A DNA stretch of 64,000 nucleotides from Rhizobium sp. NZLR1. Its GTDB lineage: Bacteria; Pseudomonadota; Alphaproteobacteria; Rhizobiales; Rhizobiaceae. Shown here piece after piece: positions 10,049 through 50,291 of the stretch (positions are counted from its first letter, which is position 1; every line of letters begins with the position of its first letter). The translations under genes were made by a program, and so were the position numbers. A model generated the notes under the pieces. The model saw only the letters and a program-made list of their open reading frames with translations. It made no database searches and was not told where the DNA came from. The stretch spans positions 4,400,001 through 4,464,000 of the forward strand of contig NZ_CP071632.1 in the NCBI RefSeq assembly GCF_017357385.1. Reading direction: 5' to 3'.

Positions 10049-10115
10049 GGCTCAGTCCGATCGGAGCGAAATCGCGGTACTCTAACGCATATGATGAAGG
10101 GTTGAAGCCACCATT

Positions 10116-12900: not shown

Positions 12901-13054
12901 GATGCTCTGAATCAATCAGACGCGGTTAACCTTTTTCGCGAAGAATCGCCTTTCGGGACGCCGCTTAAACCGCGGCTTAACGCCGGAGAGATCTGGTCGT
13001 TGCTATAAGAGTCCCGCCTCAACTCGGGGCAACGTGCGCAGCTATAGGTGGAAA

Positions 13055-14233
13055 ATGGCGATCGTCGAGGCAGATAGGGTGCGCGAGAAGGCGCAGCCGG
13101 AAACGGCGCCGCTGATCGTCCATGTCGTGCGCCAGTTCCTGCCCAACCGCGGCGGCCTGGAAGACGTGGTCGCCAATCTCGCCCGCCAGACTGTCCGGCG
13201 CGGTTATCGCGTCCGCGTGGTCACGCTCGATTCATTGTTCACCGCGCCTGAGGACAAACTGCAGCCGCGCGAAAACATCGACGGCATCGAGGTGGTGCGC
13301 ATTCCCTGGTCCGGCAGCAGCCGTTATCCGCTGGCGCCTAAGGTTTTCCGTCATCTCGCCGATGCCGATCTCGTGCATGTCCATGCCATCGACTTTTTCT
13401 TCGACGCGCTCGCCTGGGGCCGGCTGCTGCATCGTAAGCCGATGATCGTCACCACCCATGGCGGCTTCTTCCACACGCGAAAATACGCGGCGATCAAGAA
13501 GATCTGGTTCCGGACGTTGACCCGCGCCTCGGCACTGGCCTATCGCAGGGTCGTCTGCTGCAGCGCGTCCGACCTCAAGCAGTTTTCGGAAATCGTGCCC
13601 GACAGCCTGCTGATCGAAAACGGCGCCGATATCGGCAAGTTCGCCGACACCGCTTCGCGCCGGGCAAAGCGCCGCATCGTCACCATCGGCCGGTTCTCGG
13701 TGAACAAGCGGCTGGACCATCTCCTCGATGCGATGGTCATGCTGACGACCCGTGATGCGGAATGGCATCTCGATATCGTCGGCGCCGAATCCGACCTGAA
13801 CCGGGCGGATGTCGAAGCCGCGATCGAAAGCCGTAACCTTTCCGGCCTGGCCACCCTGCACGTCTCACCCGACAACGGCGCCATCCGACGGATCATCACG
13901 GATGCCTCGCTCTTTGCCTCCGCCTCTGAATATGAAGGTTTCGGTCTGGTGGCGCTGGAGGCGATGAGCGCCGGCCTGCTGCCGGTGCTGAACGCCAACG
14001 ATGCCTTCGCGACACTTGCCGGCCGGCATCCTGCTATCATGCTTGCCGATTTCACCGATCCTGGGGCCGCCGCCACCGCAATCGAAGCGGCCTATGAAGG
14101 TCTTTCGCGCCAACCTGAGACCATTCGCGCTGGGCTTCTCGACGCTACGCGCCGCTATTCCTGGGATATCGTCGCCGGACGCTATATCGATCTCTACAGA
14201 TCGTTGGATATCGTCGCCGTCGAAAACATCTGA
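13055..14233 (+). CDS. Glycosyltransferase family 4
   Basis: A 392-residue GT4 (GT-B fold) enzyme that would transfer a sugar from a nucleotide donor to a lipid-linked or sugar acceptor in the cytoplasm. The N-terminal acceptor domain begins VRQFLPNRGGLEDVV, with the GG loop of GT4 enzymes. The C-terminal donor domain contains TIGRFSVNKRLDHLL and the catalytic SASEYEGFGLVALEAM (E-x7-E). A GTG at 13034 opens the frame, but the ATG at 13055 has an AGGTGG ribosome site 3-4 bases upstream. It is convergent with the flippase-hydrolase gene, 21 bp away, and is probably part of the same polysaccharide pathway. Donor and acceptor are unknown. Confidence 0.85.
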   Translation: MAIVEADRVREKAQPETAPLIVHVVRQFLPNRGGLEDVVANLARQTVRRGYRVRVVTLDSLFTAPEDKLQPRENIDGIEVVRIPWSGSSRYPLAPKVFRHLADADLVHVHAIDFFFDALAWGRLLHRKPMIVTTHGGFFHTRKYAAIKKIWFRTLTRASALAYRRVVCCSASDLKQFSEIVPDSLLIENGADIGKFADTASRRAKRRIVTIGRFSVNKRLDHLLDAMVMLTTRDAEWHLDIVGAESDLNRADVEAAIESRNLSGLATLHVSPDNGAIRRIITDASLFASASEYEGFGLVALEAMSAGLLPVLNANDAFATLAGRHPAIMLADFTDPGAAATAIEAAYEGLSRQPETIRAGLLDATRRYSWDIVAGRYIDLYRSLDIVAVENI

Positions 14234-14254: not shown

Positions 14255-17200
14255 TCACGCTCTTGCGAGACGAATGATCTCGTCCAGCACGAATTTGCGC
14301 GACTGCGGCGGCGTCAGGTTGTGGTCGGCATCCGGCAGCATCAGCAGCCGGACGTTCGGATAGCGGGAAAGCCTTGCGCCGCGCGGCCCGAAATGGAAAT
14401 AGACATGATCGAGCCCAACATCGCCTTCGCTGTAAATCAGCGTCAGCGGCACCTTGCGTTTGCCGAACAGCGCGAAGGAATGCCTGACCTCGCGGGCGAT
14501 ATGGCGTCGGTCGGGAAGCAGCTCGAGCAGCGGCGCGATCCACGGCGACAACCGGCGGCCGGCGGCGATGACGACATTCTGCAGCGCCGAAACCACATCC
14601 ACCTGGCCGCGCAGCAGCCGCTTCAGCGTATCGAGCCGCGCCAGGCGCTGGCCGTAGTCATCCAGGCTGCGGGGAACGGAGACGACATGCTCTTTGCGCA
14701 CCGGGATCTTCGGATCCCAGTAGTAGACGAAGGGATTGATCGACACGACGGCCTTCAAACGCTCATCGGCGACCCCTGCGCGGAAGGCGAGATAACCGCC
14801 ACTGCATCGGCCGGCGACCATGACCGGACCGGTGACGATGCTTTCGAGCAGATCGAGCGAGGCGACCGCGTCCGCGGTCTGCGTATCGGAGTAAAGCACC
14901 TGTTCCGGTGCATCCGGCCGCGGCGGGCTGTCGCCGACATTAGCGGAATCGAAGCGCAGCGAAACGACGCCTTGCCGCGCGAGCTCGCGGGCCATATCAA
15001 CCGTCGTCCGTCCCCAGCCGGCATGCCGGTCATAGGCCGTCGACAGGAACAGCACGGCATTGCCCTTGATCTCGCCCAGCGGCCGGCTGACGACGCCGAC
15101 CAGGTGATCATGGCTTCCGAAACGCACCGGCATTTCCGTAAAGCCGTCACCTGCAAGCGGCGGGTTCTCGATCGCTGCCGATGAATGGGCTGCGGACGTC
15201 TCCGTCGTCCTTGCCTCCAGCCACGTCGTCAACAGCGCGATGACATCAATCGGCGTCTTGGCAAACAGCGGATTGGTGGCGAGCTCGTCATAGCCCTCGA
15301 AAGCCCTCTGCTCGACATCGGCGCCAAGCGCCCTCAGCGCATCGGCAAAGCCGGTATCCTCGGCCTTCGCAGGACGTTCGAGGATCAGATAGCGCGGGGC
15401 TGCAAGCCCCTGCGGTGAAGCGATGCTGAGCTTGCCGAGCTCGGCAGCGATCTCCTCGGGCATGACCAACCCGGCGATCTGCACCTTTGCCGTCTGGACG
15501 TGCTCCTTGCCGAGGCCGAGATCGGCATCGATAATCCTGGACCACATGTTGAGTTCACGCAGATAGGCCCGGCCGCTCAGCACCGGGGCCAGCATGACCA
15601 GGCTGTCGACACCGTCGATCGAGGAGCCGATGCGCTGGGAAAGTGTTGCCCCAAGGCCCTGGGCGATGAGGATGACGCGGTCGCAGCCGCTCAGCGACTT
15701 CAGCTTGACGGCGGCCGCACGGATCGAATTTTCCCAGGTCTCCAGCCTTGCCGGCAGCGCGCCGAAATCGAGCGCATCGCCGGTGCCGCGATAGTCGAAG
15801 CGCAGGCTCGGTACGCCGATATCGGAAAAATGCTCGGCCGCAACGCGGAAGAATTTGCGGCTGCACATCTCCTCGAAACCCCACGGGCTGACAAAGAGCA
15901 CGGCCGCCGAACGTTTCTTCACTAGAGGATTCTCGGGCATGAACAGCCCGACCGTGCCGTCGAACACGACAGGCAGGGCAGCGCTGCGTCCGGCACCCGC
16001 AGCCGGATCGAGCGAGAATTCGCCGGGCGCGACCTTGGCACGATCGGGATCGCCGGGAAGCCGCGGTGCAATGAAATTGATTGCGTGCCCCACAGGCCGG
16101 CGCAACAGCGACGGCATCTTGTCGAGAATGGAGCGCATGACGTCGACATCCTCGCCCGGCACGGCGCGCAGCACGCGGAGCGCCGCGAAATAGCAGACTG
16201 TACCGGCGACGATTGCAGCGACCAGTCCGACCGGGCCATGGAGGAATTCCAGCACGGAAATCGCCGCGCAAGCGCAGAGCACGGAGGCGAGTGTCACCTT
16301 CGTCAGGCTTGCGTAGAGACCCGAAAGCTGGGATCCGAATCCTGTCTGTCTGATCATCATCACCGACATCGCAACGAAAACGAGGATGCGCACGAGTGCG
16401 GCACCCTCGGCTGCAAGCCTAGGTACGATCAGTAAACAACCCGCTACCATGAGAAGGCCACCTATCACACTGATGTTCAGGCGGGAGCGGGCCCGGTCCA
16501 TCGACAACAGATAGAGGCTGAGGATCTGCATGAAGGTATAGGCGGGCGCGACGAGCGCCAGCAGCGCCACCACCGTGCCGCTGCGGCGGAACGCCTCGCC
16601 GAACACCACAAGCACCAGCTCGCTGGAGATCGCTGCCAGCCCGAGGCTCATCGGCAACACGATATAGGCCATGCTGCGGGTAACGGCTGCGAAGACCTCG
16701 ACCGGCAAGGTCGAATCGTCGCTGTTGTGACGCCGCTCGGAATAATAGGGCAGCAGGCTGCCGGTCATCTGGATCGGCAGTTGAAGGGCGATATTGGCGA
16801 TCGACAGTCCGACGGCGTAGTAGCCGACCATCTCCACCGACCAGAACTGCTGCAGGAAGAGCAGTTCGAGCCGATTGAGGAAGATGGAATCGATGATGAA
16901 CTGGATCGACAGGATAACGGAGGAGGAAGCGAGAGATTTCAGCGAAACCCCGCACCAGTCGCGCCGCGAAAGAAGGATCGGCAGCGTAGCGAAAAACAGC
17001 ACGAGCTGGCCGAGCGCATAACCGACGAGAACACCCTCGACGCCATAGAAAACGGCGCCGACGGCAACACCAGCGAGCTGCACAATCGAGACTGCGACCG
17101 TCAGCCGGAAGAAGGCGCCAAGCTTTTTTTCGCCAATCAGGTAAAATTTGACGAAGGATCCGATCGCCTGGACGAAGAACAGCACGCCGGTAACCAGGGC

Positions 17201-17566
17201 GACGGACGGCGCGGTATCGGCCCAGTGCATCTCCTCGGAGGTCAGGAAAAACAGAGCGTAGAGCGCCAGCAGCACGACGGTCGAGAACATCATGAAGCTG
17301 ACGAGGATGGCGGCAAAACCGCGCCGGCGGCGCGCGTCGTATCCTTCCGCAGAAAGTTGCGGTAGGGTCTTCAACAGCGTGATGCTGGAGCCGAGTTCGG
17401 CGATCGAGGCGCCCGTGACCACCAGCCAGAGCGAGAAGGCGACGATGCCGTTGGCTTCCGGTCCGAGCAGCCGCGCCGTTATGATCGATGAAATGAAGCC
17501 CGTCAGCAAGAGCAACATGCCTGCCGCCGCATTCATCATCGAATTTGCGATAATACCCTTCGACAT
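14255..17566 (-). CDS. Fusion of Wzx/MATE-like flippase and two alpha/beta-hydrolase domains
   Basis: A 1103-residue protein in one open frame. Residues 1-470 form a multi-pass membrane region like oligosaccharide flippases (MOP superfamily; LTGFISSIITARLLGPEANG at the start), with about 12-14 hydrophobic spans. A linker of about 60 residues leads to two hydrolase folds. The first (about 535-790) has DYRGTGD but AQGLGA where the nucleophile elbow should be, with Gly637 in place of Ser, so it is probably inactive. The second (about 810-1100) has GRCSGG with Cys921, Asp1049 in SEGD and His1082 in DADHN, a plausible Cys-Asp-His triad. It resembles hydrolases linked to exopolysaccharide and exosortase loci. 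It is the last gene of the locus, after a 192-bp gap holding a repeat. Confidence 0.8.
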   Translation of the reverse strand: MSKGIIANSMMNAAAGMLLLLTGFISSIITARLLGPEANGIVAFSLWLVVTGASIAELGSSITLLKTLPQLSAEGYDARRRRGFAAILVSFMMFSTVVLLALYALFFLTSEEMHWADTAPSVALVTGVLFFVQAIGSFVKFYLIGEKKLGAFFRLTVAVSIVQLAGVAVGAVFYGVEGVLVGYALGQLVLFFATLPILLSRRDWCGVSLKSLASSSVILSIQFIIDSIFLNRLELLFLQQFWSVEMVGYYAVGLSIANIALQLPIQMTGSLLPYYSERRHNSDDSTLPVEVFAAVTRSMAYIVLPMSLGLAAISSELVLVVFGEAFRRSGTVVALLALVAPAYTFMQILSLYLLSMDRARSRLNISVIGGLLMVAGCLLIVPRLAAEGAALVRILVFVAMSVMMIRQTGFGSQLSGLYASLTKVTLASVLCACAAISVLEFLHGPVGLVAAIVAGTVCYFAALRVLRAVPGEDVDVMRSILDKMPSLLRRPVGHAINFIAPRLPGDPDRAKVAPGEFSLDPAAGAGRSAALPVVFDGTVGLFMPENPLVKKRSAAVLFVSPWGFEEMCSRKFFRVAAEHFSDIGVPSLRFDYRGTGDALDFGALPARLETWENSIRAAAVKLKSLSGCDRVILIAQGLGATLSQRIGSSIDGVDSLVMLAPVLSGRAYLRELNMWSRIIDADLGLGKEHVQTAKVQIAGLVMPEEIAAELGKLSIASPQGLAAPRYLILERPAKAEDTGFADALRALGADVEQRAFEGYDELATNPLFAKTPIDVIALLTTWLEARTTETSAAHSSAAIENPPLAGDGFTEMPVRFGSHDHLVGVVSRPLGEIKGNAVLFLSTAYDRHAGWGRTTVDMARELARQGVVSLRFDSANVGDSPPRPDAPEQVLYSDTQTADAVASLDLLESIVTGPVMVAGRCSGGYLAFRAGVADERLKAVVSINPFVYYWDPKIPVRKEHVVSVPRSLDDYGQRLARLDTLKRLLRGQVDVVSALQNVVIAAGRRLSPWIAPLLELLPDRRHIAREVRHSFALFGKRKVPLTLIYSEGDVGLDHVYFHFGPRGARLSRYPNVRLLMLPDADHNLTPPQSRKFVLDEIIRLARA

Positions 17567-17758: not shown

Positions 17759-19000
17759 TTAGCTTGCCTGCATCGCCGATAGCTTCTGAAGCGCTTTCTC
17801 ATAGCTGTTCTCAGCGAGGTAGCGCAGCAGGAAGGCCCGCGCCTTTTCAGCCTTCTCTCTCGCAAGCTCGGGCGCGCGGAAGATATCCCCGAGGCGCGCG
17901 GCCGCGGCTTCCGGAGAAGGATCTGCCCAGACCGCGCCCTCGAGCCCGGCAAATTCCGGATGGGTATCGACGACCGGAATGAGGGGAGAGTCGACCAGCC
18001 ATGTATTGTCCGGATCGCAGAAATCCGCCGTGCCCGACCAGGCGGTTGAGATAACCGGCGTGCGCTGCATGATCGCCTCGGCAACCGTCAGCCCGAACCC
18101 CTCGGAACGATGCAGCGAAAGATAGGCGTCGGAAGAGCGGATGAGGCCGTTGATCTCGGCGTTCGACAGCCTGTCAGTGACGATTCTGATCCGGGCGTCA
18201 CCCGCGACCGAAGCGACCAGTGCGCGCAGGCCTTTGTCCTTGTTCACATCGCCGCTGGCCTTCATCAACAGGAAAGCGCTTGGGGCCTCGGCGGCGAATA
18301 TCCTGAAGGCTTCGATCACCGCCTGCGGATTTTTCCGGTTGATCGAGGAGCCGGCGCTGAAAATGAAGCTGACGAGAAAGGCGTCCTTCTCGATGCCGAA
18401 CTTCTCCCGCATGCCTTCCGTTGCCGGCGCCGCGGTGACGGGATGCGGAACGACGATAACGGGTGCCTTGGTGAGCGGCGCAATCGCCCGCCGGGTGAAT
18501 TCCGACGGCACGAAGACGGCATTCATATAGTGCATAGCGTTGCGCCACTCGGCCGGTACGACTTCGAGCTCCCAGGCGAAATACCCGATATTGAAGGCGC
18601 GGGTGAAATTCGCAACGCCCTTCTTCAGAATGGCGCGCGGCAGCATCGGCGGATTGAGATGCCAGATACGGCTTCCCGGCGCCTCGATCGAGAGAGGCGA
18701 CGGTGTCCATCCGGCGAAGGACTCTTCGTCGGGATGCGTGCTGACGTCGGAAAGCGAAATCGCCCTTCCCGCCTCCGACAGAGCGCCGGCGCAAAGCCTT
18801 GCCGATTCGCCGACGCCGACAGCCATCGAGAGATAGCCGACGATTTCCACCGGCTTGCGCGGATTGAAGGCAAGCCGCGATCGCGGGATCAGCCGCTGCA
18901 GCACATGGGCACGCAAAAAGCGGTATGTCGTTCTCAAATCGCGGTCTTTCTCAATGGATCGGCATCGTTTTTCGCGAGATTCAGCCCGAGAGGGCGACAC
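17759..19000 (-). CDS. Glycosyltransferase family 4
   Basis: A 413-residue GT4-like enzyme. The start region has IVGYLSMAVGVGESARL, the donor domain FSAGSSINRKNPQAVIEAF, and the catalytic loop HRSEGFGLTVAEAIM (E-x7-E). No ATG is available in frame near the start; a GTG at 19000 with a GGGAAG ribosome site was taken. It overlaps the end of the GH2 gene by 20 bp, so the two are probably translated from one message. It likely builds part of the glycan that the fused flippase exports. The sugar is not predictable. Confidence 0.82.
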   Translation of the reverse strand: MSPSRAESREKRCRSIEKDRDLRTTYRFLRAHVLQRLIPRSRLAFNPRKPVEIVGYLSMAVGVGESARLCAGALSEAGRAISLSDVSTHPDEESFAGWTPSPLSIEAPGSRIWHLNPPMLPRAILKKGVANFTRAFNIGYFAWELEVVPAEWRNAMHYMNAVFVPSEFTRRAIAPLTKAPVIVVPHPVTAAPATEGMREKFGIEKDAFLVSFIFSAGSSINRKNPQAVIEAFRIFAAEAPSAFLLMKASGDVNKDKGLRALVASVAGDARIRIVTDRLSNAEINGLIRSSDAYLSLHRSEGFGLTVAEAIMQRTPVISTAWSGTADFCDPDNTWLVDSPLIPVVDTHPEFAGLEGAVWADPSPEAAAARLGDIFRAPELAREKAEKARAFLLRYLAENSYEKALQKLSAMQAS

Positions 19001-21461
19001 GATGCGAACTTCCCAGACTTCTAATCTCGCCTGCAGGCGCGATATCGCTTTCGGTGCCGGGCAGCGCCGAGAGCGTCACGCGCCGCATCGCACCGGGGGC
19101 GAGGTGGAACCAGTCGTCGTCGGCCCGGTGGCCTTCGACGTCGATATGCACCGATTGCGCCAGCCGGTCGGTCCTCAGATCGACGAACCAGTCGTCGCCG
19201 TCCCTGCCGAGTGATGCTTCGATGCCGGCATCATGCAACGCCTTCCCCCGTCCGCACGGGAAGTGGAAGCTTTCCGCGAGGATGGCGCCATCTGCCAGCG
19301 AACGCAGGCGCGCAACACTCGCATCATGCGACGGCGGCCCGAAACGGAAGGCATAGGTCGTATCGAAAAAGGCGCCGAACAGCGCGGTGCAGGCAATACG
19401 CTCCGTGTCCCTTGCGGCCAGCTTGAAAGCCCTGCTACCGCTGAGCACCTGCTGTTTTCCGTCCCGCAGGCAGATGACTTCGAGTTCCACATCGAGAGCG
19501 GCATCCGTCTCGTTGATGATGTGCACGTCGAGACCGTTGGTTCCCTCGTCGGTGAAAACCACCTGAACCGGCCGGAATGCACGGCGCATCGCATACCAGG
19601 CCGGCTTCGGCTCTCCGGTGGAATCGATCACCCCCCAGCCGGGACCGGGCAGCAGATCCTGCAACGTCCAGACGAGGGCGCCGTTACAGGAGGAGCCCTT
19701 GCGCCGCCATTCGGCAAAGGTCTCTTCGATCACTTCGCCGGTGACGGCGCGGGAGAGATCGAGATAATGCCCCGGATCTTCGCGGCGCAGCTGGGCCGGA
19801 TCGAAGCCGTAGAGAAGCTGCAGATAGAAATCGCGAACATCCTCGAAATCCCAAGATGCGCTGCGGTCGCGTGGCACACGCGCCTTCCAGAGCGGGCTGT
19901 GCACAGCCGGCACATCGAGATGCCGTTGCAGCGTCCTTTGCTGCGGCACATGCGCGAAGGCGAGGCTCTCGGAGGCAAAACGCACGTTGGCGCGACGCGC
20001 GTCGGCAATCGGCAGCATATAGGCGCCGACGCCGTAATAATGGGCAATACCGGCATTGGGCGAAAACGGCATCGCTCCACCATGGGGCGAGTTCGGGACA
20101 TAGGGCACGTCGGGACGCATGCGCGTAGCGATGGCCGGGATGATCTCATCTGTGACCGGCCCGCTCCAGAATTCCATGGGCAGACCCAGCATCGCCGCCT
20201 GCTGGTGGATTTCGCTGCCGCCGCAGAGCACTGCGAGGGAAGGCGACGCCTGGACGCCGTGCAGGAATTCCTCGACCTCGGCATGCACATGGCCGAGAAA
20301 AGCCTTGTCGTTGCGCGGATAGTCGAAATTGGCGAACATGAAATCCTGCCACACCAGCAGGCCGAGCTCGTCGCAGAGCGTAAAGAAATCGGGCGTCTCG
20401 TAGACCATGGTGCCGCCGATGCGGATCATGTTCATGCCGGCGCCAGCGGCAAGCCGCAGGAACGGCTCATAATCCGCCCGCCCGCCCGGCAGACGCGCGA
20501 TATCGGCTGTCGTCCAGACCGCGCCGCGGCAGAAGATGCGTTCGCCGTTGACGGTGAGCGCGAAGTCGTCGCCGTCTTCGCCGTGGTCAACGTCGATCCG
20601 CCGGAAGCCGGTCCTGCCCAGCGGATATTCAACGCCGTCGGAAATCAGCGTCAGCTCGTAGAGGCGCGGAGCGCCATGCGTATGCGGCCACCAGGGCTCG
20701 ATGTCGGAAAGCTTGAGGATAGCCGAGTAATGATTGTCGCCGATCTTCTCGAAGGGCTGCTCCATCCCGCCGCAGTGCAGCAGCATCGCGGGATGCTCGG
20801 CATTGCTATGCAGGGAAACGCTGAGGCGGCCGACGCCGCTTTCCTCCAACACCGCGCGGATGGAGACATTGTCGATCGAGACGGGATTGCGCCGCACCAT
20901 CGAAATCGGCCGCCATGGCCCGACGGCATGGATATCGGGGCACCAACCCGGCATATGACCGAGCAGCGTCGTGCGGAAATTCTTCAGCCCCGCCGGCGTG
21001 ATCATCTGCGGCCGCCAGCGTGCGCGCGGGCCCGGCTCCGACAGCCGGGGGCCGAGCGCCCGGAAGCATAGCGCCAGTTCGTCGCCGCCCGAAAGCGTCA
21101 CCGGAATCTCGTGCGCCGTGAACATGCTCTCGGAAAACAGGATTTCTTGGCCGTTCAGGAAGACATGGCAAAGCGTCGCGAGCCCTGCAAAACGCAGGAT
21201 TGCCTCGCCGGGCTCGGCATCGAAGAGTCGGCAGAGATACCAGGCGTCCCTGGTGTTCAACGGTTCGGGATTTTCCCGATCGAACAGCCCGGCCTTTTCC
21301 AGCGCTGCGGCGACGGTTCCGGGAACGGGCGCTGGGATGAGCCGCGCGGAGAGCGGGATATCGTGCGGCACGGCGCAGGCGCCCGGCTCCGTCAGGATCA
21401 GGTTCCAGCCTTCGGAAATCAGACTTTCCTCGGCACCGATGCTTGCCAAACGCCCCCGCAT
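18981..21461 (-). CDS. Glycoside hydrolase family 2, beta-mannosidase-like, cytoplasmic
   Basis: An 826-residue GH2-type enzyme: an N-terminal galactose-binding-like domain (PVPGTVAAALEKAGLF), an Ig-like domain, a TIM barrel (IRIGGTMVYETPDFFTLCDELGLLVWQDFMFANFDYP) and C-terminal beta domains. The acid/base Glu417 sits in CGGSE, a change from the usual GNNE; the nucleophile Glu498 is in FASESLAF. Both catalytic acids are kept. There is no signal peptide, so it acts inside the cell. The ATG at 21461, 17 bp after the DUF1839 stop and with GGAG upstream, was chosen over 21494. Within a glycan locus it may edit or recycle mannose-like units. Substrate is inferred only from the family. Confidence 0.82.
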   Translation of the reverse strand: MRGRLASIGAEESLISEGWNLILTEPGACAVPHDIPLSARLIPAPVPGTVAAALEKAGLFDRENPEPLNTRDAWYLCRLFDAEPGEAILRFAGLATLCHVFLNGQEILFSESMFTAHEIPVTLSGGDELALCFRALGPRLSEPGPRARWRPQMITPAGLKNFRTTLLGHMPGWCPDIHAVGPWRPISMVRRNPVSIDNVSIRAVLEESGVGRLSVSLHSNAEHPAMLLHCGGMEQPFEKIGDNHYSAILKLSDIEPWWPHTHGAPRLYELTLISDGVEYPLGRTGFRRIDVDHGEDGDDFALTVNGERIFCRGAVWTTADIARLPGGRADYEPFLRLAAGAGMNMIRIGGTMVYETPDFFTLCDELGLLVWQDFMFANFDYPRNDKAFLGHVHAEVEEFLHGVQASPSLAVLCGGSEIHQQAAMLGLPMEFWSGPVTDEIIPAIATRMRPDVPYVPNSPHGGAMPFSPNAGIAHYYGVGAYMLPIADARRANVRFASESLAFAHVPQQRTLQRHLDVPAVHSPLWKARVPRDRSASWDFEDVRDFYLQLLYGFDPAQLRREDPGHYLDLSRAVTGEVIEETFAEWRRKGSSCNGALVWTLQDLLPGPGWGVIDSTGEPKPAWYAMRRAFRPVQVVFTDEGTNGLDVHIINETDAALDVELEVICLRDGKQQVLSGSRAFKLAARDTERIACTALFGAFFDTTYAFRFGPPSHDASVARLRSLADGAILAESFHFPCGRGKALHDAGIEASLGRDGDDWFVDLRTDRLAQSVHIDVEGHRADDDWFHLAPGAMRRVTLSALPGTESDIAPAGEIRSLGSSHRVALSG

Positions 21462-21477
21462 GGTCAGATCTCCGGCC

Positions 21478-22440
21478 TCAGATTCGCCCCGCAAGCGACG
21501 CCATCATGGAATCCCATGCATCGGCAGCCGGATCAAGGGCTGCCTGCAGCGGTTCGAACTTCCGGCGAGCGATGGCACGGGCAAGCTGGAACTGCACGGA
21601 TTTCGCCGTATCCGAAATGCGCCGGGCATGCTCGGCGGCCGCGGCGAATTCATCAGCAGAAAGCCAGACCAGATAATCGGCCGCCAGCTCGAAATTGGCG
21701 CCCACCTGGCGAAGCGTATTGAAGGCATATTTGTGGAAGAAGCCGAACGGCCGCTCCGCCACCGCTTCGACCTGCTGCGGAAAAACGCTTGCAAATGCAC
21801 GGATCGGATTTTCGCTGGGACGCCTGTTGAAATGAACGCCGGCAAGCCGCCGGGCGGTCGCGCGCAGATACTTTTCATCAGCGGGCTTTTCCGGGAACCG
21901 GGCAAATTCCGCATAGGGCAGGAACGGCGGCTCATTCTCCGTCAGCTGCAGCTGGAACAGCCCGTTGAAATCCTCGCCTTCGAGGCGGAAATAGCCGGCA
22001 TTGTGGAAATAATCGACACGCTTGGCGGCAACATCCAGCCGGTTGATGGCCACCGTCGTCTTGCCGTGCTCCAACAGGTAGGCGGTCCCGCGCGTATCCG
22101 GCATGTAGAAGGAATCCATCTCGATCAGGCAGAGACGGCCCCGCGCGATCTGAACTTCGACATGGCGTTCGACGCGGTCGTAAATGGCAAGCTCGGTCGC
22201 GCGAATGCCGTAGAGCGCTTCGAGATCTTCGAGCGGCACCTTGAAGAAGGTGAACTGGTCGCCCTCGAAATCCTGCGTCAGGGTGAAACCGAGCATCGCC
22301 TCGGGCGCAACGCCTGAGGTCGCCAGCACCTCGATCCAGAGATCGACATAGCAATTGGTTTCCGGCCAGGTACGCTCGCCGGAATGCAGCGCGTGCTGAC
22401 GATAGGTCTCCGGGTCGATTCCCGAAAATACCGATGTCAT
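21478..22440 (-). CDS. DUF1839 family protein of amino acid:carrier protein ligase cluster
   Basis: A 320-residue protein of the DUF1839 family, function unknown. It has no signal peptide or membrane span. Notable segments are GERTWPETNCYVDLWIEVL near the start and QDFEGDQFTFFKVP. Genes of this family typically travel with amino acid:[carrier protein] ligases. The ATG at 22440, 8 bp after the ligase stop, is preferred over an upstream start at 22485 that would overlap it. A role in using the aminoacyl-carrier product, for example as a transferase, is a guess from context. Confidence 0.78.
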   Translation of the reverse strand: MTSVFSGIDPETYRQHALHSGERTWPETNCYVDLWIEVLATSGVAPEAMLGFTLTQDFEGDQFTFFKVPLEDLEALYGIRATELAIYDRVERHVEVQIARGRLCLIEMDSFYMPDTRGTAYLLEHGKTTVAINRLDVAAKRVDYFHNAGYFRLEGEDFNGLFQLQLTENEPPFLPYAEFARFPEKPADEKYLRATARRLAGVHFNRRPSENPIRAFASVFPQQVEAVAERPFGFFHKYAFNTLRQVGANFELAADYLVWLSADEFAAAAEHARRISDTAKSVQFQLARAIARRKFEPLQAALDPAADAWDSMMASLAGRI

Positions 22441-22448
22441 CGACCGGC

Positions 22449-23357
22449 TCAACCCCACAGCGCTTTCCGTACGCTGGCCGGCCATTCCTTCACATCGAGC
22501 CCGTGATGATGGAAGAGAGCCAGCGCGATGCGCTCCAGTCCGAAGCCGACGCAGGCGGTGTGGGCGACACTGCCGTCTTCAAGATTGAGACCCCATTTCG
22601 TCCCGAAGGCATCCTGATGGTAGTTGAAGCTCATGCAGGCGGTCGGATTGGCGGTCGAGGTGATCGGGATCAGCAGTTCGAATTTCAGGTTCTGGTCGCG
22701 CTGGTTGTTGGCGAGCATCTTGCCGGCGCGGCCGAAGAACGGATCGTTGGCGATATCGATCGTCACCTCGAGGCCGACGGCCTTCATCATCTCGACACCG
22801 CGATCCATCCAGCGCTGGCGGAAATCGGTAACGTGCTCTTCGGTGCCCATGCAGACATATTCGCGCATGCGAAACAGCTGCTGGCGGGCCGGATCCTTCG
22901 ACGGTTCGTGGCGGAAGCAATAGGATTGCAGGTCGAAGAGGCCGCCCGTCTTCGGCAGGTTGCCGCGCTTGGCGATCGTTGGATAGAGTGGATAACAGGC
23001 GGCCGGCGTCAACACGATGTCGGTCGCCTCCTGCCCCTTGGTCCAGTCCTCGCCGACCTCCATGCATTGCAGCAGACTGACATGATCCAGTTCGCTGCCG
23101 CAGAAGCTGTGCACCGTGCCGGCGAGCTGCGGAAAACTCTTCATGTAGCCGCTCGTCTCGAAGAAGGCGCGGTTCATGCCGGGCGGAAAGCGCATGGCCT
23201 CCGCGCCGTCGGCGCCGCCGAACGTGTCGATTAGGCGCTCGAAGGCAGCGATCACCTCTTCGAACTGGCCGCTGCGGCCATAGAGCCCATCGATGCCGGT
23301 ATCGATCAGCAGCCCGGCTTCGAAAAGCCGGTCCAGAAACGAGGTCTGCATATCCAT
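22449..23357 (-). CDS. Amino acid:[carrier protein] ligase (class II aminoacyl-tRNA synthetase-like)
   Basis: Homologue of the catalytic core of atypical seryl-tRNA synthetase without a tRNA-binding domain. Bradyrhizobium and Agrobacterium members charge glycine or alanine onto the phosphopantetheine of a small carrier protein. Class II motif 2 is FRHEPS with FRMREY, and motif 3 is GFGLERI. Counted from the GTG at 23366, the zinc ligands are Cys124 (PAACYP), Glu169 (MREY) and Cys272 (HTACVG). Their spacing, 45 and 148, equals that of the Cys131/Glu176/Cys279 set I recall for the Bradyrhizobium enzyme. The ATG at 23357 has a GGGGTG ribosome site; the GTG start would overlap the preceding stop. 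It lies between a flavoprotein and DUF1839, with the carrier protein at the operon head. Confidence 0.88.
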
Positions 23358-23362
23358 GACTG

Positions 23363-24544
23363 TCACCCCAGTAGGCTAGTGTCCTGCTTATGGACAAGAA
23401 GCATGCTCGACGTATTGCCGAGGATGCGGTCGTTCGAAATCATCAGCTGTGCGGAGTGCGCGTCGCGCAGATGGCGTCCAAGGCTGAAGGGCGTGCCATT
23501 CTTGTAGCCCATGATGCCGCAGATCAGCATGGCGTGGTTGACGATCTCCAGGATCGTCTCGGACGAGGCGATCTTGACGTTGTTCATCGCCACCGCAAAT
23601 CCCATCGAAGACAGCCGGTCGACATCGACCTTGGCATCCTCATAGGCCTTGAGGCCGGCAACCACATTGGATTTCACCATCTGCAGCAGGTTCGAAACCT
23701 CGGCCAGGCGCAGCGCGCCCGGCGGCTGCGCATCCGGCGCCTTGCGGGCGGCAGCGCGCACGAAAGCCTGGGCGCGGACGACGGCGTCGACCGCGATGCC
23801 GTACCAGACGCCGCTCCACAACAGATGCGAGGAGGCGAGCATGGATTGCGCGGCGATCTCCGCGAAAGGCTTCGGCAGGATCTGATGCGCCGACGCTTGC
23901 CCCTTGAAGAGGAATCCGTCGGAGCAGGTGCCGCGCATGCCGAGCGTATTCCAGACATGCGTTTTCTCGAGCGTGTACTGGTCCTTGAGGAAGGCCGTCA
24001 GCACCTGATCGGAGGAAGCCGCCTGCGCATGGGCACGCGAGGTGATGAGAATGGCGTCGGCATGTGAACCGTAGGAAATGACGGTCGCATCCTTTTCGAG
24101 GCGGCAGGTGTCACCATCGACCTCGACCGCGCAAATGCTGTTGCGAAGGTTTCCGCCGATACCACCTTCGGTGGTGGCCGATGCGATCAGCAACTGATCA
24201 GCGGCAATGCGGCGCATGAAGTCGCGGTGCCATTCGCTGTCGGCACCGTGTTCAACAAGGCTCGACAGCTTGATGTGATGCATGGCGAAGACCATGGCGC
24301 TTGCAGCGCAGGCCTGGCCGAGCATCGAGCACAATTCGGCGATCTCGGTGATCGAGGCGGATTCGCCGCCGAATTGGCGCGGCACCTGGATGCCGAGCAG
24401 CCTTTCGGCCTTCATCGCATCCACGGCTTCGCGCGGAAAGCGGGCTTCGACGTCGACCGCATCGGCGTGTTTCGCCGCGATTTCGACGACGCGGGCCACT
24501 CTTGCGACAAGACCGTCCTGCATGATCTTGACGGGGAAATTCAT
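23363..24544 (-). CDS. Acyl-CoA dehydrogenase-like flavoprotein
   Basis: A 393-residue member of the acyl-CoA dehydrogenase family: a helical N-terminal part ([22 protein letters not shown]), a middle beta domain ([11 protein letters not shown] at the FAD/substrate loop) and a C-terminal helical bundle. It lies between a carrier protein gene (stop overlapping its ATG) and the ligase gene, so the likely substrate is an acyl or aminoacyl group on that carrier rather than a CoA ester. Relatives oxidise prolyl groups on carrier proteins to pyrroles. That oxidation happens here is an inference. Cytoplasmic. Confidence 0.82.
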
Positions 24545-24795
24545 CAGGCGACCTTCCGGCTGTCCCGGATGAGATCGACGGTCCTGGCGATGGCAGAGAT
24601 GCTCGCGAAAGATTTGCGATTCAGGAGATTGTCGGGAAATTCGATGTCGAACGCCTCTTCGATGCCAAGCATCAGCTGCACCGAAGCAAAGGATGTCAGA
24701 CCGGCCGCATAAAGGTCGGCATCGTCGGCGACCTGGTCGATCGACGCAGGAAGTTTGCCGAATTTGGCTACGAGGTCGCGGATTGTCTTATTCAT
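24544..24795 (-). CDS. Acyl/aminoacyl carrier protein
   Basis: An 83-residue carrier protein. The attachment site for 4'-phosphopantetheine is Ser35 in DLYAAGLTSFASVQLML, with D-x-Y/L-x-x-G-L-x-S spacing; the usual DSL is replaced by TSF, as in other ligase-linked carriers. A GGAG ribosome site lies 7 bases before the ATG. It is the first gene of a minus-strand run that continues through the flavoprotein, ligase, DUF1839, GH2 and GT4 genes with overlaps or gaps under 20 bp. It should be the carrier charged by the neighbouring ligase. Confidence 0.88.
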   Translation of the reverse strand: MNKTIRDLVAKFGKLPASIDQVADDADLYAAGLTSFASVQLMLGIEEAFDIEFPDNLLNRKSFASISAIARTVDLIRDSRKVA

Positions 24796-25057: not shown

Positions 25058-26110
25058 TCAATCCGCGGGCGGATAGGAATGTTCGCCGCCGCGATAATCC
25101 GAGACGGAATAACACCCGTCACCGCTAGCCCGGATGGCGCTTCCACTGACAACGGCCTTGCCGTGACCACCCGGTATATCGAGGATGTAGGCCGGCTGGC
25201 AGAGACCGGAAATCTGCCCTCGCAGCGCGGCGACGATCCTCTGCCCCTCCTCGATCGTCACTCTGAAATGACCGGTGCCGGGCGCCAGATCAGGATGATG
25301 CAGGTAATAGGGTTTGACGCGGATTTCGACGAAGGCCTTCATCAGTGCCGCAAGCACGTCGGGATCGTCGTTGACGCCCTTGAGCAGCACCGACTGGCTG
25401 ACCATGGCGATGCCGGCATCGACGAGGCGGGCGCAGGCAGCACGCGCTTCCGCCGTCAGTTCTCTGACATGGTTGGCATGCAGCGCCACATAGACCGTCT
25501 TGCCGCTCGCCTTCAGCGCGGCGATCATCGCCGCATCGATCTTCCCGGGATCGACAACAGGAACGCGGGTGTGGAATCGCACGATCTTCACATGGGCGAT
25601 CCCGGCAAGTGCCTGCATGATATCATGGAGGCGGCGCGGAGAAAGCACCAGCGGATCGCCACCGGTGAGGATGACCTCCCAGATCTCCTCGTGACCTCTG
25701 ATGTAGTCGAAAGCTGCCTGCATCGCCGCCGCATCGAGCGTGCCGAGGCCCTGCGGCCCGACCATTTCGCGCCGGAAGCAGAAGCGGCAATAAACCGGGC
25801 AGACATGCACGGCCTTGAGCAACACACGATCGGGATAGCGGTGAACGATGCCTTCGACGGGGCTATGGGCATGATCGCCGATCGGATCGGCGCGTTCTTC
25901 TCGGGCGATCGTGAGTTCGGCTATGTCAGGCACGAATTGCCGTGCGATCGGATCATCAGGATCGGTGAGGTCGATGAGCTCGCTGATCACAGGTGTCAGC
26001 GCGATCGCGTAACGCGCCGCAACCTGCTCGAGCGTTGCGCGATCGGCGGGCGCGACCAGCCCTGCCATCACCAGATCGTCGACGCTTTTGAGCGGTTTGA
26101 CGGCATTCAT
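25058..26110 (-). CDS. epmB: EF-P beta-lysylation protein EpmB (lysine 2,3-aminomutase-like)
   Basis: Radical-SAM enzyme of 350 residues that converts (S)-alpha-lysine to (R)-beta-lysine for modification of elongation factor P. The CPVYCRFC motif (C-x3-C-x2-C, about residue 105) binds the 4Fe-4S cluster. GGDPLVLS and KPYYLHHPDLAPGTGHFRV match lysine 2,3-aminomutases. It is shorter than clostridial aminomutases, as EpmB proteins are. The gene overlaps epmA by 4 bp, and efp is divergent just beyond, so the three form a functional set. Confidence 0.9.
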   Translation of the reverse strand: MNAVKPLKSVDDLVMAGLVAPADRATLEQVAARYAIALTPVISELIDLTDPDDPIARQFVPDIAELTIAREERADPIGDHAHSPVEGIVHRYPDRVLLKAVHVCPVYCRFCFRREMVGPQGLGTLDAAAMQAAFDYIRGHEEIWEVILTGGDPLVLSPRRLHDIMQALAGIAHVKIVRFHTRVPVVDPGKIDAAMIAALKASGKTVYVALHANHVRELTAEARAACARLVDAGIAMVSQSVLLKGVNDDPDVLAALMKAFVEIRVKPYYLHHPDLAPGTGHFRVTIEEGQRIVAALRGQISGLCQPAYILDIPGGHGKAVVSGSAIRASGDGCYSVSDYRGGEHSYPPAD

Positions 26111-27168
26111 CTTCCGTACTCCGCAACCGGCGCCCAGAGCACCTGATCGATGCGCGATGCTCCCGTCGCCAGCATCACCAGCCGGTCGAAGCCGAGCGCG
26201 ATGCCGCTTGCCTCACGCATCAGCGAAACTGCGGCAAGGAAGTCCTCGTCAATCGGATAGGTTTCGTCGTAGACACGCGCCTTCTCGGCCATTTCGATCT
26301 CGAACCGCCGGCGCTGTTCGGCAGCATTGGTGAGCTCGCCGAAGCCGTTCGCAAGCTCGACGCCGCAGGCGTAGAGTTCGAACCGCTCGGCAACCCTGGG
26401 ATCGCGTGGCGAGGGACGCGCAAGTGCAGCCTCCGAGATCGGATATTCGTCGAGGATGGTGATGCGGCCGAAGCCGAGATGCGGCTCGATCTTTTCGACC
26501 AGCACCCGGCTGAACAGATCGGCCCAGCCATCGTCATCGGCAACACGCATGCCGGCGCGCTTCATCTCTGCCGCCAGATGATCGCGATCGGTCGACCCGT
26601 CGGCGGCGACCGAGGCGAGAAGATCGATGCCGGCATGACGCTCGAATGCTTCGGCAACGCCAATCCGCTCCGGACCGGCGAAGGGATCGCTTTCGCCACC
26701 GCGATAGGCAAGTTTTTCAGTCTTTACCGTTTCGGCCGCGAGCGCCAGGATCCGCACACAATCCATCATCAGGCTCTCGTAGCTTTCGCCGGCCCGATAC
26801 CATTCAAGCATGGTGAATTCAGGATGGTGCAGCGGCCCGCGCTCGCGATTGCGATAGACATGGGCAAAACACGAGATGCGCTCCTCACCCGCCGCAAGCA
26901 ACTTCTTGCAGGCGAATTCCGGCGAGGTGTGCAGATAGAATGGCGCCTTTTGCCCGTCCGTCGTCAGTGCTTCGGTGGCGAAGGCATGCAGATGCGCCTC
27001 GTTGCCCGGGGAGATCTGCAGCACCGCCGTATCCACCTCGATGAAATCCTCGCGCGCGAAAAACCCGCGCAACGCCGCCTGGATCGCATTGCGCCCGATC
27101 AGGAACGGACGGCGATCGGCGTGTACGGACGGGTTCCACCAGGGGGACACTTTCGCCGAAGAGTTCAT
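26107..27168 (-). CDS. epmA: EF-P lysine ligase EpmA (GenX/PoxA, truncated LysRS)
   Basis: A 353-residue paralogue of the catalytic domain of class II lysyl-tRNA synthetase without the anticodon-binding domain. Motif 2 is seen in [24 protein letters not shown] and motif 3 in [12 protein letters not shown]. It ligates beta-lysine to the conserved lysine of EF-P. It is divergent from efp across about 150 bp and overlaps epmB by 4 bp. Confidence 0.92.
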
Positions 27169-27316
27169 TCCAAGCTTTCTTCGCCGGAGAAGCCGGTATG
27201 GGGATGGCTATTTCCCGGATTTTAGGTTAGTTGCGCCCCCAAAGAAAAATATTTGCGTCTTCGAGGCGTCTCGGCAGTTCTCTACGACGCCGAAAGCCGA
27301 GTTACAAGGAAGTCTT

Positions 27317-27886
27317 ATGGTCAAGGTCATCGCCTCTTCGGTCCGCAAGGGCAACGTTCTCGACGTCGACGGCAAGCTTTACGTCGTTCTCACCGCTCAG
27401 AACTTTCATCCGGGCAAGGGTACGCCGGTCACCCAGGTCGACATGCGCCGCATCGTTGACGGCGTGAAGGTTGCTGAGCGTTGGCGCACCACCGAACAGG
27501 TCGAGCGCGCCTTCGTCGAGGACGTGTCCTTCCAGTACCTCTATCAAGACGGCGAAGGCTTCCACTTCATGAACCCGAGCAACTACGATCAGGTCGTGGT
27601 TGATGTCGACACTATGGGCGATCAGAAGGTCTATCTGCAGGAAGGCATGTCCTGCATCCTCTCGATCTATGAAGGCCTTCCGCTGGCACTCGAGCTGCCT
27701 CGCCACGTCACGCTTGAGATCACCGAGACGGAACCGGTCGTCAAGGGCCAGACGGCATCGTCCTCCTACAAGCCGGCCATCCTGTCGAACGGCGTGCGCG
27801 CCATGGTGCCGCCGCACATCAATGCCGGCACTCGCGTCGTCATCGCGACGGAAGACAATTCCTACGTCGAACGCGCCAAGGACTGA
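27317..27886 (+). CDS. efp: Elongation factor P
   Basis: A 189-residue EF-P that relieves ribosome stalling at polyproline stretches. The modified residue is Lys34 in HPGKGTP, the same number as in E. coli. The three beta-barrel domains are complete and the C-terminal [21 protein letters not shown] is canonical. The open frame extends much further upstream, but the ATG at 27317 has an AAGGA ribosome site 6 bases away and gives the correct length. The beta-lysine enzymes EpmA and EpmB are encoded divergently. Confidence 0.96.
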
Positions 27887-27956: not shown

Positions 27957-28685
27957 TCAGAGATGCGGGTTGCGCGGCCGGTATTTCTGGACAAGCTTCT
28001 GGTTGATCTCGGCTGCACCCGGCATGTTGGCGCTGAGATAAACCGGCGCATCGCCGGATTTCGAAAGCTCGGAGGCGACCTCGGCGAAGATCGCATTGAT
28101 GACCGTCACCCCGACCGCCGTCGAGACCGGCCCGACCCGAAGCCCCGTGCCTTCGAGGTCGAGAACGGCGTCACCCGGTGGCAGCCCATTGTCGAGCACC
28201 ACATCGGCCGCGTCGGCGAGCCGCCGGCGGCCATTGGCGATCGCTGAGGAATAGGCGATCGAAGTGATGGCAATCACCTTTGCGCCGATTTCTCGCGCGT
28301 AGTCGGCGGCTTCGATCGGCGCGGCATTGACGCCCGAATTGGAGGCGATGATGATGACATCGCCCGGCTGCATGCCGTAACGCTCCAACATGGGCCGAAC
28401 CAGGCCCTGCGTGCGTTCATAGACCGAACTGATGACCGCACCCTCATGCAGCATCGCCGAGCCGACGAGCACCGGCACGGTGAAGGCGAGCCCGCCGGCA
28501 CGATAGTGCACCTCTTCCGCCAGCATATGCGAATGGCCAGTGCCGAAGACATAGACGCGCTTGTCGCCGTGGGCAGCATCGAGGATAACCGCCGCCGCCT
28601 GCGCCATCGGCTCGGCAAGCGTCTGCTTCAATTCTTCCAGCCGGCCGATCAGGTTGGAGAAATAGGCATCCGTGATGTCAGTCAT
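27957..28685 (-). CDS. SIS domain sugar-phosphate protein (UPF0309-like)
   Basis: A 242-residue protein with one SIS (sugar isomerase) fold. [21 protein letters not shown] and [21 protein letters not shown] are the phosphosugar-binding strands. Proteins of this type accompany amino-sugar operons and may isomerise or sense a sugar phosphate; the exact reaction is unknown. The ATG at 28685 was chosen over an upstream frame that would overlap nagA. It is the last gene of the GntR-SIS-nagA-SIS group, 16 bp after nagA. Confidence 0.82.
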
Positions 28686-28701
28686 CCCACTTCTCCTTGA
28701 G

Positions 28702-29853
28702 TCAAGCCGCTTCGCCGCTGAGCCAGGTGGCGGTGACCGAGAGCGCATCGGTGAGATGCACGAGATCGGCGCGCGCGCCTGGTGCGAGATGGCCGCGATC
28801 GCCCAGTCTGAGAAAGCGGGCGGGATAAAGCGTTGCCATGCGCAAAGCCTCGGCCAGCGTCAGATCGAGATAGGTGACGCCGTAGCGAATCGTCGAGATC
28901 ATGTCGACGTCGGAACCGGCCAGCGTGCCGTCGGATAGTACCAGCTTCGAGCAGAACCCGCCCCGTTCGCGCCGGACGGCGCGCCCGTTCAGCGTGAACG
29001 AATCCTTCTCCGACCCGACGAGCGACATCGCATCGGTGACGAAAAACAGTCTGCCTTCGCCGCGTTTGGCACGCAGCGCCGTGCGCAAAGCCTTCGGATC
29101 GACATGGTGACCATCGGCAATGACGCCGCACCAGATCGAGGGATGATCGATCGCCGCGCCGACGAGACCGGGGGTACGGTGTCCGAGCTGGCTCATGGCG
29201 TTGAAGAGGTGCGTGACGCCGCGCGCTCCGGCATCGAAACGTTGTTCCGCTGCCTCGCTCGAACAATCGGAATGACCGATACTGACGGTGACGCCGGCTT
29301 CGGCAAGCTCACGCACCTGGGCAACCGTCACCTGCTCGGCAGCCATGGTGACGAGCAGCGTGCCGATCGCCTCGCGTGCCCGGATGAAGGCCTTGACGTC
29401 TCGATCCTCGACCGGCCGCATCAGTTCGGCCAGATGCGCACCCTTGCGCGCAGGCGCCAGATGCGGGCCTTCGAGATGCAAGCCGGCGACGCCACGGTTC
29501 GCCTTCACCGCCTCCTTGGCGGCCTCGATTGCGGCAATGGATGCCTCGGACGTGTCGGTGATCAGCGTCGGCAAGAGCGATGTCGTGCCATAGGGCCGGT
29601 GTCCAGCAGCGATGATCTCCATCGAGGTGACGGAAGGCTCGTCGTTCAGCATCCGCCCGGCGCCGCCATTGACCTGCGCATCGATGAAGCCGGCCGACAG
29701 AACCCCGCCGGCAAGCGTCACCGTCTCGCCGTCCGGCAGATCGTTTCCAGCAGCGATCGCCTCGACGCGGCCGTCGGCAACGATGAGTGCTTTCTCGTCA
29801 TGGAAGCGCTCGCCATCGAAGATGCGGGCGCCGATGAAGATCTTGCGGACCAT
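28702..29853 (-). CDS. nagA: N-acetylglucosamine-6-phosphate deacetylase
   Basis: A 383-residue amidohydrolase-fold enzyme that removes acetate from GlcNAc-6-phosphate. Family motifs are [36 protein letters not shown] and the catalytic Asp in FVTDAMS. The first metal-site motif reads DAQVNG instead of the more common DxHxNG, a change seen in single-metal NagA enzymes. Its start overlaps the stop of the upstream SIS gene by 1 bp. It is probably repressed by the GntR protein at the head of the operon. Confidence 0.92.
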
Positions 29854-50116: not shown

Positions 50117-50291
50117 GGGTCCATGCAAATGAGGGCGGGCGCCCCCAGGAAAATCTCGGCTTCTCATGGAAGCTAGAGAACACATGGACAGCTGTCACCG
50201 CAAACGCAAGGGCAGATTTCAAATTGCTTCTGGGATTACGACCTTTGCGAGTCTTGCGGAACACCCGAATTTCCGATTCGGAACAGCGTGA

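Follow-up and report, generated by a model that had tools for sequence, protein, structure and literature searches.

A carrier protein, ligase, DUF1839 and GH2 gene module of Rhizobium and its proposed role in aminoacylating an amino-sugar-containing glycan

What do bacteria use amino acid:[carrier protein] ligases for? The purpose of these enzymes has been an open question since 2010, and the passage on them in a 2022 review still calls their role unknown (PMC9437257). Here we describe such a ligase gene in Rhizobium sp. NZLR1, in a stretch of 64,000 nucleotides (contig NZ_CP071632.1, positions 4,400,001 to 4,464,000; hereafter the window) taken from a genome of 6.86 Mb in six contigs. The ligase gene is part of a module with genes for a carrier protein, a flavoprotein, a DUF1839 protein and a GH2 protein. 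We consider it probable, with some reserve, that this module encodes a pathway for the aminoacylation, by way of a carrier protein, of a glycan or glycoconjugate that contains amino sugar.

The transcription order of the genes is carrier, flavoprotein, ligase, DUF1839, GH2 and GT4. An initial annotation of the window, made from the sequence alone, had described these six genes as one minus-strand run, and the coordinates, strand and profile matches of all six agree with this:

24544..24795, minus strand: stand-alone carrier protein of 83 amino acids (NF005480, 124.7 bits, cut-off 72; PF00550)
23363..24544, minus strand: flavoprotein with acyl-CoA-dehydrogenase fold (PF02771 and PF00441, above their cut-offs)
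22449..23366, minus strand: amino acid:[carrier protein] ligase, a truncated class II synthetase relative (NF005479, 523.9 bits, cut-off 357)
21478..22485, minus strand: DUF1839 protein, papain-like fold with C-terminal helices (PF08893, 449.6 bits, cut-off 22.5)
18981..21494, minus strand: GH2 protein of the beta-mannosidase group (PF22666, PF17753; nearest to beta-mannosidases, 5n6u with E-value 5e-51)
17759..19000, minus strand: GT4 glycosyltransferase, a lineage-specific addition to the core (PF00534, above cut-off)

With each frame read from its first start codon, neighbouring genes overlap by 1, 4, 37, 17 and 20 base pairs (bp) in transcription order, and the 37-bp overlap between the ligase and DUF1839 genes varies with the choice of the DUF1839 start. 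The earlier wording, overlaps or gaps under 20 bp, was nearly right: it holds for the overlaps of 1, 4 and 17 bp, not for those of 37 and 20 bp.

We searched overlapping draws of 121 genomes of the family, 249 of the order and 398 of the phylum with the ligase model. Above the cut-off there were 25 genomes in the family draw, 48 in the order draw and 28 in the phylum draw, giving 83 distinct loci. Each locus was read with up to about 10 kb per side where the contigs allowed, the own locus being read from the window. Loci with an adjacent DUF1839 gene form class A (67 loci) and those without it form class B (16 loci), while 23 matches below the cut-off were excluded from the counts. The five core genes (carrier, flavoprotein, ligase, DUF1839 and GH2) were found in identical order and strand in all 67 class A loci, in line with the constant linkage of GH2 to DUF1839 and the ligase that had been expected. 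Every ligase locus with DUF1839 has the carrier, flavoprotein and GH2 genes in a constant order and on one strand, which makes a chance neighbourhood unlikely.

The reverse search started from DUF1839 and covered the best 80 of at least 520 relatives in named genomes, close relatives from Rhizobium, Agrobacterium, Shinella and near genera. The ligase was found in all 80 of these loci and all five genes in 78. One of the two remaining loci is cut by a contig end (L184), and in the other, from R. mesoamericanum STM3625 (L240), the module is present and no GH2 was found. Rhizobium lentis and R. altiplani each have a second copy of the module (L237 and L239, beside L185 and L197) with the GH2 gene in pieces; both copies are counted in the 78. 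In five further, distant DUF1839 loci, the flavoprotein, ligase and DUF1839 genes were found together in all five, and GH2, the tandem hydrolase described below and the carrier in four each; one of these contigs starts just before the flavoprotein gene. DUF1839 was found in 5 of 385 genomes of the same taxonomic class and in 3 of 321 of another class, the centre genome being counted in each. DUF1839 is thus rare, but it travels with the module in the loci read, except for one lone copy. The protein searches gave at least 7999 ligase relatives and at least 1922 DUF1839 relatives among about 8000 scored candidates each, which were inspected by name only.

The lone copy is found in the same genome (L003, contig C4 of 328 kb, 9715-10767) and has 90% DNA identity to positions 21368-22422 of the window. 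The match stops soon after the GH2 gene start, and neither a ligase nor a carrier gene was found within the 19.9 kb that were read. This copy is a partial duplication.

In class B (for example L118, L120 and L163) the ligase and flavoprotein genes are on one strand in all 16 loci, with the carrier gene on the opposite strand in 14. Neither DUF1839 nor GH2 was found near the ligase in any of the 16, and a search for DUF1839 through 20 whole genomes, among them 13 of the 16 class B genomes, gave no hit in these 13. Because these loci have the ligase and flavoprotein and lack DUF1839 and GH2, the first two steps of the pathway proposed below serve a different end too, and the class B product must differ from the class A product. 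Several class B loci have nearby a gene for an AMP-binding enzyme or for a protein of about 300 amino acids that has no Pfam match. Of the ligase-like genes below the cut-off, 13 were read as class C, and no partner gene of the module was found beside them. These distant proteins (L105, L164-L175) are often encoded by open frames of 400-480 amino acids.

The ligase of the window is short (305 amino acids), and the only Pfam domain seen is PF00587, below its cut-off (26.4 against 29.3 bits). It has the features of family NF005479, which are a class II core, the conserved C/E/C residues and motif Arg, and no tRNA-binding domain. Among solved structures it matches PDB 4h2w (E-value 5.2e-100) and 3mey (E-value 7.5e-95), which are Bll0957 (ligase 1) structures. 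C124, E169, C272, R166 and R279 are invariant in all 83 aligned ligases. The first three, which we take to be the zinc ligands after the Bll0957 structures, had been pointed out before together with the class II motifs. S35 of the carrier, the presumed phosphopantetheine serine of the initial annotation, is invariant as well, in 81 of 81 aligned rows; two class B loci gave no carrier match. Bll0957 and its relatives were reportedly described as amino acid:[carrier protein] ligases by Mocibob in 2010 and 2013. The window shares with them the ligase family NF005479 and the partner carrier family NF005480, but belongs to the larger, DUF1839-bearing group, and we infer that the Bradyrhizobium ligases of the Bll0957 type belong to class B. 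A specificity of such ligases for glycine or alanine is mentioned in the citing text of the 2022 review (PMC9437257).

The module differs from class B in DUF1839 and GH2. DUF1839 had been named as a candidate transferase, and the fold comparison supports this. Its papain-like core and C-terminal helical domain superpose together on carrier-dependent amide synthases of the CcbD/CtaG type, and the fold resembles that of CcbD along almost all of DUF1839, as far as the C-terminal part that serves for carrier binding in CcbD, at 12% identity. In making the antibiotic celesticetin, CcbD links a carrier-bound amino acid to an amino sugar through an amide, the kind of bond proposed for the module. The three close structural neighbours of DUF1839 are all from natural-product pathways and none of them is a protease. 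The DUF1839 profile found nothing significant among the sequences of solved structures (best E-value 1), so that only the fold comparison gave a match. Based on the structural model, we propose that DUF1839 is a carrier-dependent amide synthase, that is, an aminoacyl transferase.

In papain-like folds the catalytic Cys is found at the start of the first long helix. In the DUF1839 model, for which the window protein was aligned with 52 of 54 kept rows (two rows of locus L142 were left out), Cys45 is model residue 26 and lies at the N-terminal end of helix 26-37. It is kept in 66 of 69 rows. Thr143 and His161 are also conserved, and a Cys-Thr/Ser-His triad is reported for DUF1839 in the section of PMC10318531 on this family. 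For the lincosamide condensation enzymes CcbD and LmbD, the likeness to DUF1839 lies in the fold, the carrier-bound amino acid donor and a Cys-type triad, with an amino sugar as the acceptor of CcbD (PMC12945683). The differences are that their triad is Cys-His-Glu and that their donor is loaded by an adenylation domain (PMC4351081), whereas here a class II synthetase relative is present. Another likeness is BtrH, the acyl carrier protein:aminoglycoside acyltransferase of butirosin, which the same section of PMC10318531 places in the papain-like superfamily and which transfers a carrier-bound acyl group to an aminoglycoside. A BtrH structure was absent from the matches of both fold searches, which is no evidence against the likeness.

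In two loci from another family of the phylum (L109, 10435-11418, and L116, 10401-11378), residue 45 of the in-cluster DUF1839 protein is Arg or Gln and not Cys, and position 144 holds a Cys, which looks as though the catalytic residue has been relocated in the sequence. Each of the two genomes has a second DUF1839, and the second copy of L116, about 4 kb away, keeps Cys45.

The catalytic acids of GH2, which had been noted in the window, are conserved in class A: E428 in 67 of 67 proteins and E509 in 66, with one gap. A Ser-Glu motif (SE motif, S427-E428) stands in place of Asn-Glu, and S427 is found in 66 of 67. At the place of the beta-mannosidase Trp, located from the 5n6u alignment, the 67 proteins have Gly (42), Ser (14), Pro (7) or Ala (4). 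A hydropathy scan found no signal-peptide-like segment in either GH2 or DUF1839, and both proteins are therefore probably cytoplasmic. In its parts on these motifs, a 2025 survey of GH2 describes such a Ser in a glucosaminidase subfamily as compatible with C2 amination, and reports for subfamily GH2_14 the SE motif, a Gly where mannosidases have Trp, and signal peptides less often than in any other subfamily (PMC12243196). The module GH2 shares with GH2_14 the SE motif, a small residue at the Trp place, the lack of a visible signal peptide and the nearness to beta-mannosidases, in a comparison made by motifs. Judged from these residues, the active site of GH2 points, independently of DUF1839, to a putative sugar that is amino-modified or otherwise substituted.

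The flavoprotein has an acyl-CoA-dehydrogenase fold in its AlphaFold2 model (predicted local distance difference test, pLDDT, 92.7). At the position of the dehydrogenase catalytic Glu it has Ile369, in 83 of 83 rows, and it is not a canonical acyl-CoA dehydrogenase there. This position, near the C-terminus as in SCAD and MCAD, was set by ungapped extension of the alignment beyond the conserved Arg-Asp, with the SCAD motif as guide. Comparing folds to decide between a dehydrogenase and a monooxygenase ended in a tie and was rejected as evidence for either. We propose that the flavoprotein is an oxidase or monooxygenase of the aminoacyl group.

Besides the core genes, there are genes next to the module that are found in part of the loci:

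16100..17566 (boundary approximate), minus strand: Wzx-type flippase, N-terminal half of a fusion of 1103 amino acids (PF13440, 45.5 bits)
14255..16099, minus strand: tandem alpha/beta-hydrolase, C-terminal half of the flippase fusion (TIGR03101/TIGR03100-like, below cut-off; PF12697, 41.2 bits)
13034..14233, plus strand: second GT4, convergent (PF13439/PF00534)

The fusion frame (14255-17566) begins 192 bp past the GT4 gene. The earlier span of the module, 17759..24795, holds for the six genes and omits this adjoining gene, whose C-terminal half often accompanies the module. The tandem hydrolase is linked in 44 of 67 class A loci against 0 of 16 class B loci, and in 32 of the 45 class A loci with at least 9 kb read on both sides; within the 44 loci it is less than 1.5 kb from GH2 in 33 and on the same strand in 24. 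In its second domain Cys921 stands at the nucleophile elbow (G-R-C921-S-G) in 46 of 48 rows, the other two being gapped. Of the 47 lettered rows of the first domain, 45 have Gly (28) or Arg (17) at the nucleophile place and 2 have Ser; the first domain of the window protein has no nucleophile at the elbow. Both domains match the exosortase-A-associated hydrolases TIGR03100 and TIGR03101, in the order 2 then 1, but with scores below the curated cut-offs, and here they are fused together and in the window also to a flippase. A second frame of 1103 amino acids in the window (46874-50185) matches a Suv3-type helicase, and the equal length is a coincidence.

The E-x7-E motif reported for the GT4 of 17759 is visible in its translation, and this gene was found in 3 of 67 class A loci and in 19 of the 80 DUF1839-started loci, all from Rhizobium or Rhizobiales isolates. 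Relatives of the second GT4 are near 26 of 67 class A loci. For polysaccharide assembly in general, we used four iterated profiles (Wzz, sugar transferase, flippase and GT4) on about 10 kb around the loci; the counts are lower bounds, since other glycosyltransferase families, polymerases and ABC export are outside these profiles. At least one profile matched near 41 of the 67 class A loci and near 7 of the 16 in class B (Fisher p 0.26), and two or more kinds of genes were found in 33 of 67 against 1 of 16. Polysaccharide genes were rejected as the defining partner of the module, and since the presence of any such gene is not significant, we do not count GT4 and flippase as core. The tandem hydrolase is better linked to the module than GT4 or flippase, and its fusion to the flippase in the window is a physical tie of the module to export.

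The initial annotation had expected constant linkage to GT4 and flippase, which these counts do not support. It had also named homologous clusters mostly lacking glycan genes as evidence against its aminoacylated-glycan reading; GH2 is always present, and export and glycosyltransferase genes often, not always. From that reading, DUF1839 as the transferase and GH2 as a constant partner stand, and the constancy of GT4 and flippase does not.

How could these proteins work together? The ligase would adenylate a small amino acid, probably glycine, and load it onto the phosphopantetheine arm of the carrier, as shown for relatives and expected here by homology. The flavoprotein may then oxidise the carrier-bound aminoacyl group, more probably at the nitrogen or the alpha position than by alpha,beta-desaturation. 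In the step best supported here, Cys45 of DUF1839 would accept the aminoacyl group and pass it to the amine of an amino sugar as an amide, like CcbD. GH2, in the cytoplasm and with an active site that would suit sugars modified at C2, may trim, proof-read or transglycosylate the saccharide so altered, and the tandem hydrolase may use its Cys nucleophile for a further acyl transfer or release. Finally, depending on the lineage, glycosyltransferases and the flippase would assemble and export the product. We prefer this mechanism, in which a carrier-bound amino acid, probably in oxidised form, ends up as an amide on an amino sugar, and regard it as fairly likely. A specific form of it is doubtful: an N-oxidised aminoacyl amide, for example N-hydroxyglycyl, on C2-amino sugars of a surface glycan, made by a six-part non-ribosomal route. 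Here the synthetase relative would activate the amino acid, the monooxygenase with acyl-CoA-dehydrogenase fold would oxidise it on the carrier, the CcbD-like DUF1839 would transfer it, and the cytoplasmic GH2, as a transglycosidase, and the Cys-nucleophile tandem hydrolase would process the product. We know of no such glycan decoration.

Several points weigh against the amide transfer to a glycan amino sugar. The product, acceptor and reaction are predictions, and the fold similarity of DUF1839 is no proof of its function. CtaG and AziU2/U3 are not known to use amino sugars. The 16 class B loci have the ligase and flavoprotein, 14 of them with the opposite-strand carrier, without DUF1839 or GH2; one of the five distant DUF1839 loci (L268) lacks a nearby GH2, as does L240; and glycosyltransferase and flippase genes as a class are not significantly enriched. 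Furthermore, two GH2_14 enzymes with the SE motif were slow beta-galactosidases, acting on a plain C2 hydroxyl, in the tests given in the 2025 survey, where one of them had weak activity towards lacto-N-tetraose and beta-1,6-galactobiose, and neither of them acted on mannobiose or mannotriose (PMC12243196). As these enzymes act on beta-galactosides, an amino-sugar substrate does not follow from the SE motif by itself.

The product may instead be a small secreted or intracellular aminoacyl-sugar metabolite, such as an antibiotic-like or signalling pseudodisaccharide, with incidental glycan genes nearby. CcbD and BtrH, the nearest analogues, do belong to small-molecule pathways, and 26 of 67 class A loci have none of the four profiles within about 10 kb, where polymerases and other glycosyltransferase families were not searched. 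Nevertheless we think this unlikely, given the presence of GH2 in all class A loci, the fusion of tandem hydrolase and flippase in the window and the excess of loci with two or more kinds of assembly genes in class A. It is improbable that the aminoacyl group goes to a protein or a lipid, or to the carrier system itself, as a tag or in lipid aminoacylation, with GH2 removing a protecting sugar. Papain-like folds do include transglutaminases and proteases (PMC10318531), and the sections on synthetase paralogues describe the aminoacylation of lipids and proteins (PMC2922099, PMC9437257), but the close structural neighbours of DUF1839 belong to natural-product pathways and are not proteases, and the GH2 active site resembles subfamilies tied, in the survey cited above, to C2-modified or substituted sugars. 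Least probable of all, DUF1839 might clear mischarged carrier as a hydrolase or editing thioesterase, with the tandem hydrolase as the true transferase. The well-kept Cys921 and the linkage of the tandem hydrolase in 44 of 67 loci fit such a role, but it is the less constant partner, found in 32 of the 45 class A loci and in 4 of the 5 distant DUF1839 loci, all 5 of which have the ligase. The CcbD-like match, too, covers nearly all of DUF1839 and extends to the part that holds the carrier in CcbD.

The preferred mechanism, amide transfer to an amino sugar, has a precedent in a prediction printed in 2010 by authors whom we take to be Iyer and colleagues. It names an Atu2574-type protein, which by our reading is DUF1839, since its number neighbours that of Atu2573, presumably the Agrobacterium ligase, and the Agrobacterium loci (L212 and L233) carry the gene set. 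In a note in proof, a synthetase paralogue, a carrier, an oxidoreductase, the Atu2574-type protein and a glycosidase were predicted to couple an amino acid to an amino group on a sugar of the cell surface; Atu2574 would form the amide, and the oxidoreductase was considered a probable monooxygenase (PMC2922099, Biol Direct). The genes, including liposaccharide genes, and the chemistry are the same as here, but that prediction is based on neighbourhoods, and the section on it has no transferase fold, locus counts, tandem hydrolase or ligase loci without DUF1839 (PMC2922099). For a related system with a methionyl-synthetase paralogue, another part of that paper names papain-like transacylases including BtrH. 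Two papers found in the literature on Atu2571 to Atu2574, Bll0957 and Bll6282 give, in the parts concerned, only expression listings. The initial annotation called the final product of such clusters undescribed. No product was found in the literature searched, but the hypothesis itself, including the glycosidase, the amide ligase and the oxidation, was in print in the 2010 section.

The window is a further member of the kind predicted in 2010, and the core idea is not new. New, as far as the literature searched shows, are the full-length match of DUF1839 to CcbD-type amide synthases, the counts and the two groups of ligases. The Cys-type tandem hydrolase, the flippase fusion and the SE motif of GH2 also appear to be new, within searches of which none named the tandem hydrolase or the SE motif.

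Directly upstream of the module (25058-27886), there are genes for EpmA (GenX, above cut-off) and a lysine-2,3-aminomutase-like protein, and the opposite strand encodes elongation factor P. EpmA is a second synthetase paralogue for non-tRNA aminoacylation beside the module. Further upstream (27957-30884) are genes for NagA, for a protein like NagB-II (below cut-off) and for an amino-sugar metabolism protein with a sugar-isomerase domain.

The analysis sets two groups of amino acid:[carrier protein] ligases apart, one with DUF1839 and GH2 and one without. Placing DUF1839 with CcbD gives the pathway a transferase that can be assayed, a donor and a class of acceptor. If the proposal is true, an aminoacylated surface glycan of rhizobia and their relatives would be a cell-surface modification that glycan analysis could have overlooked.

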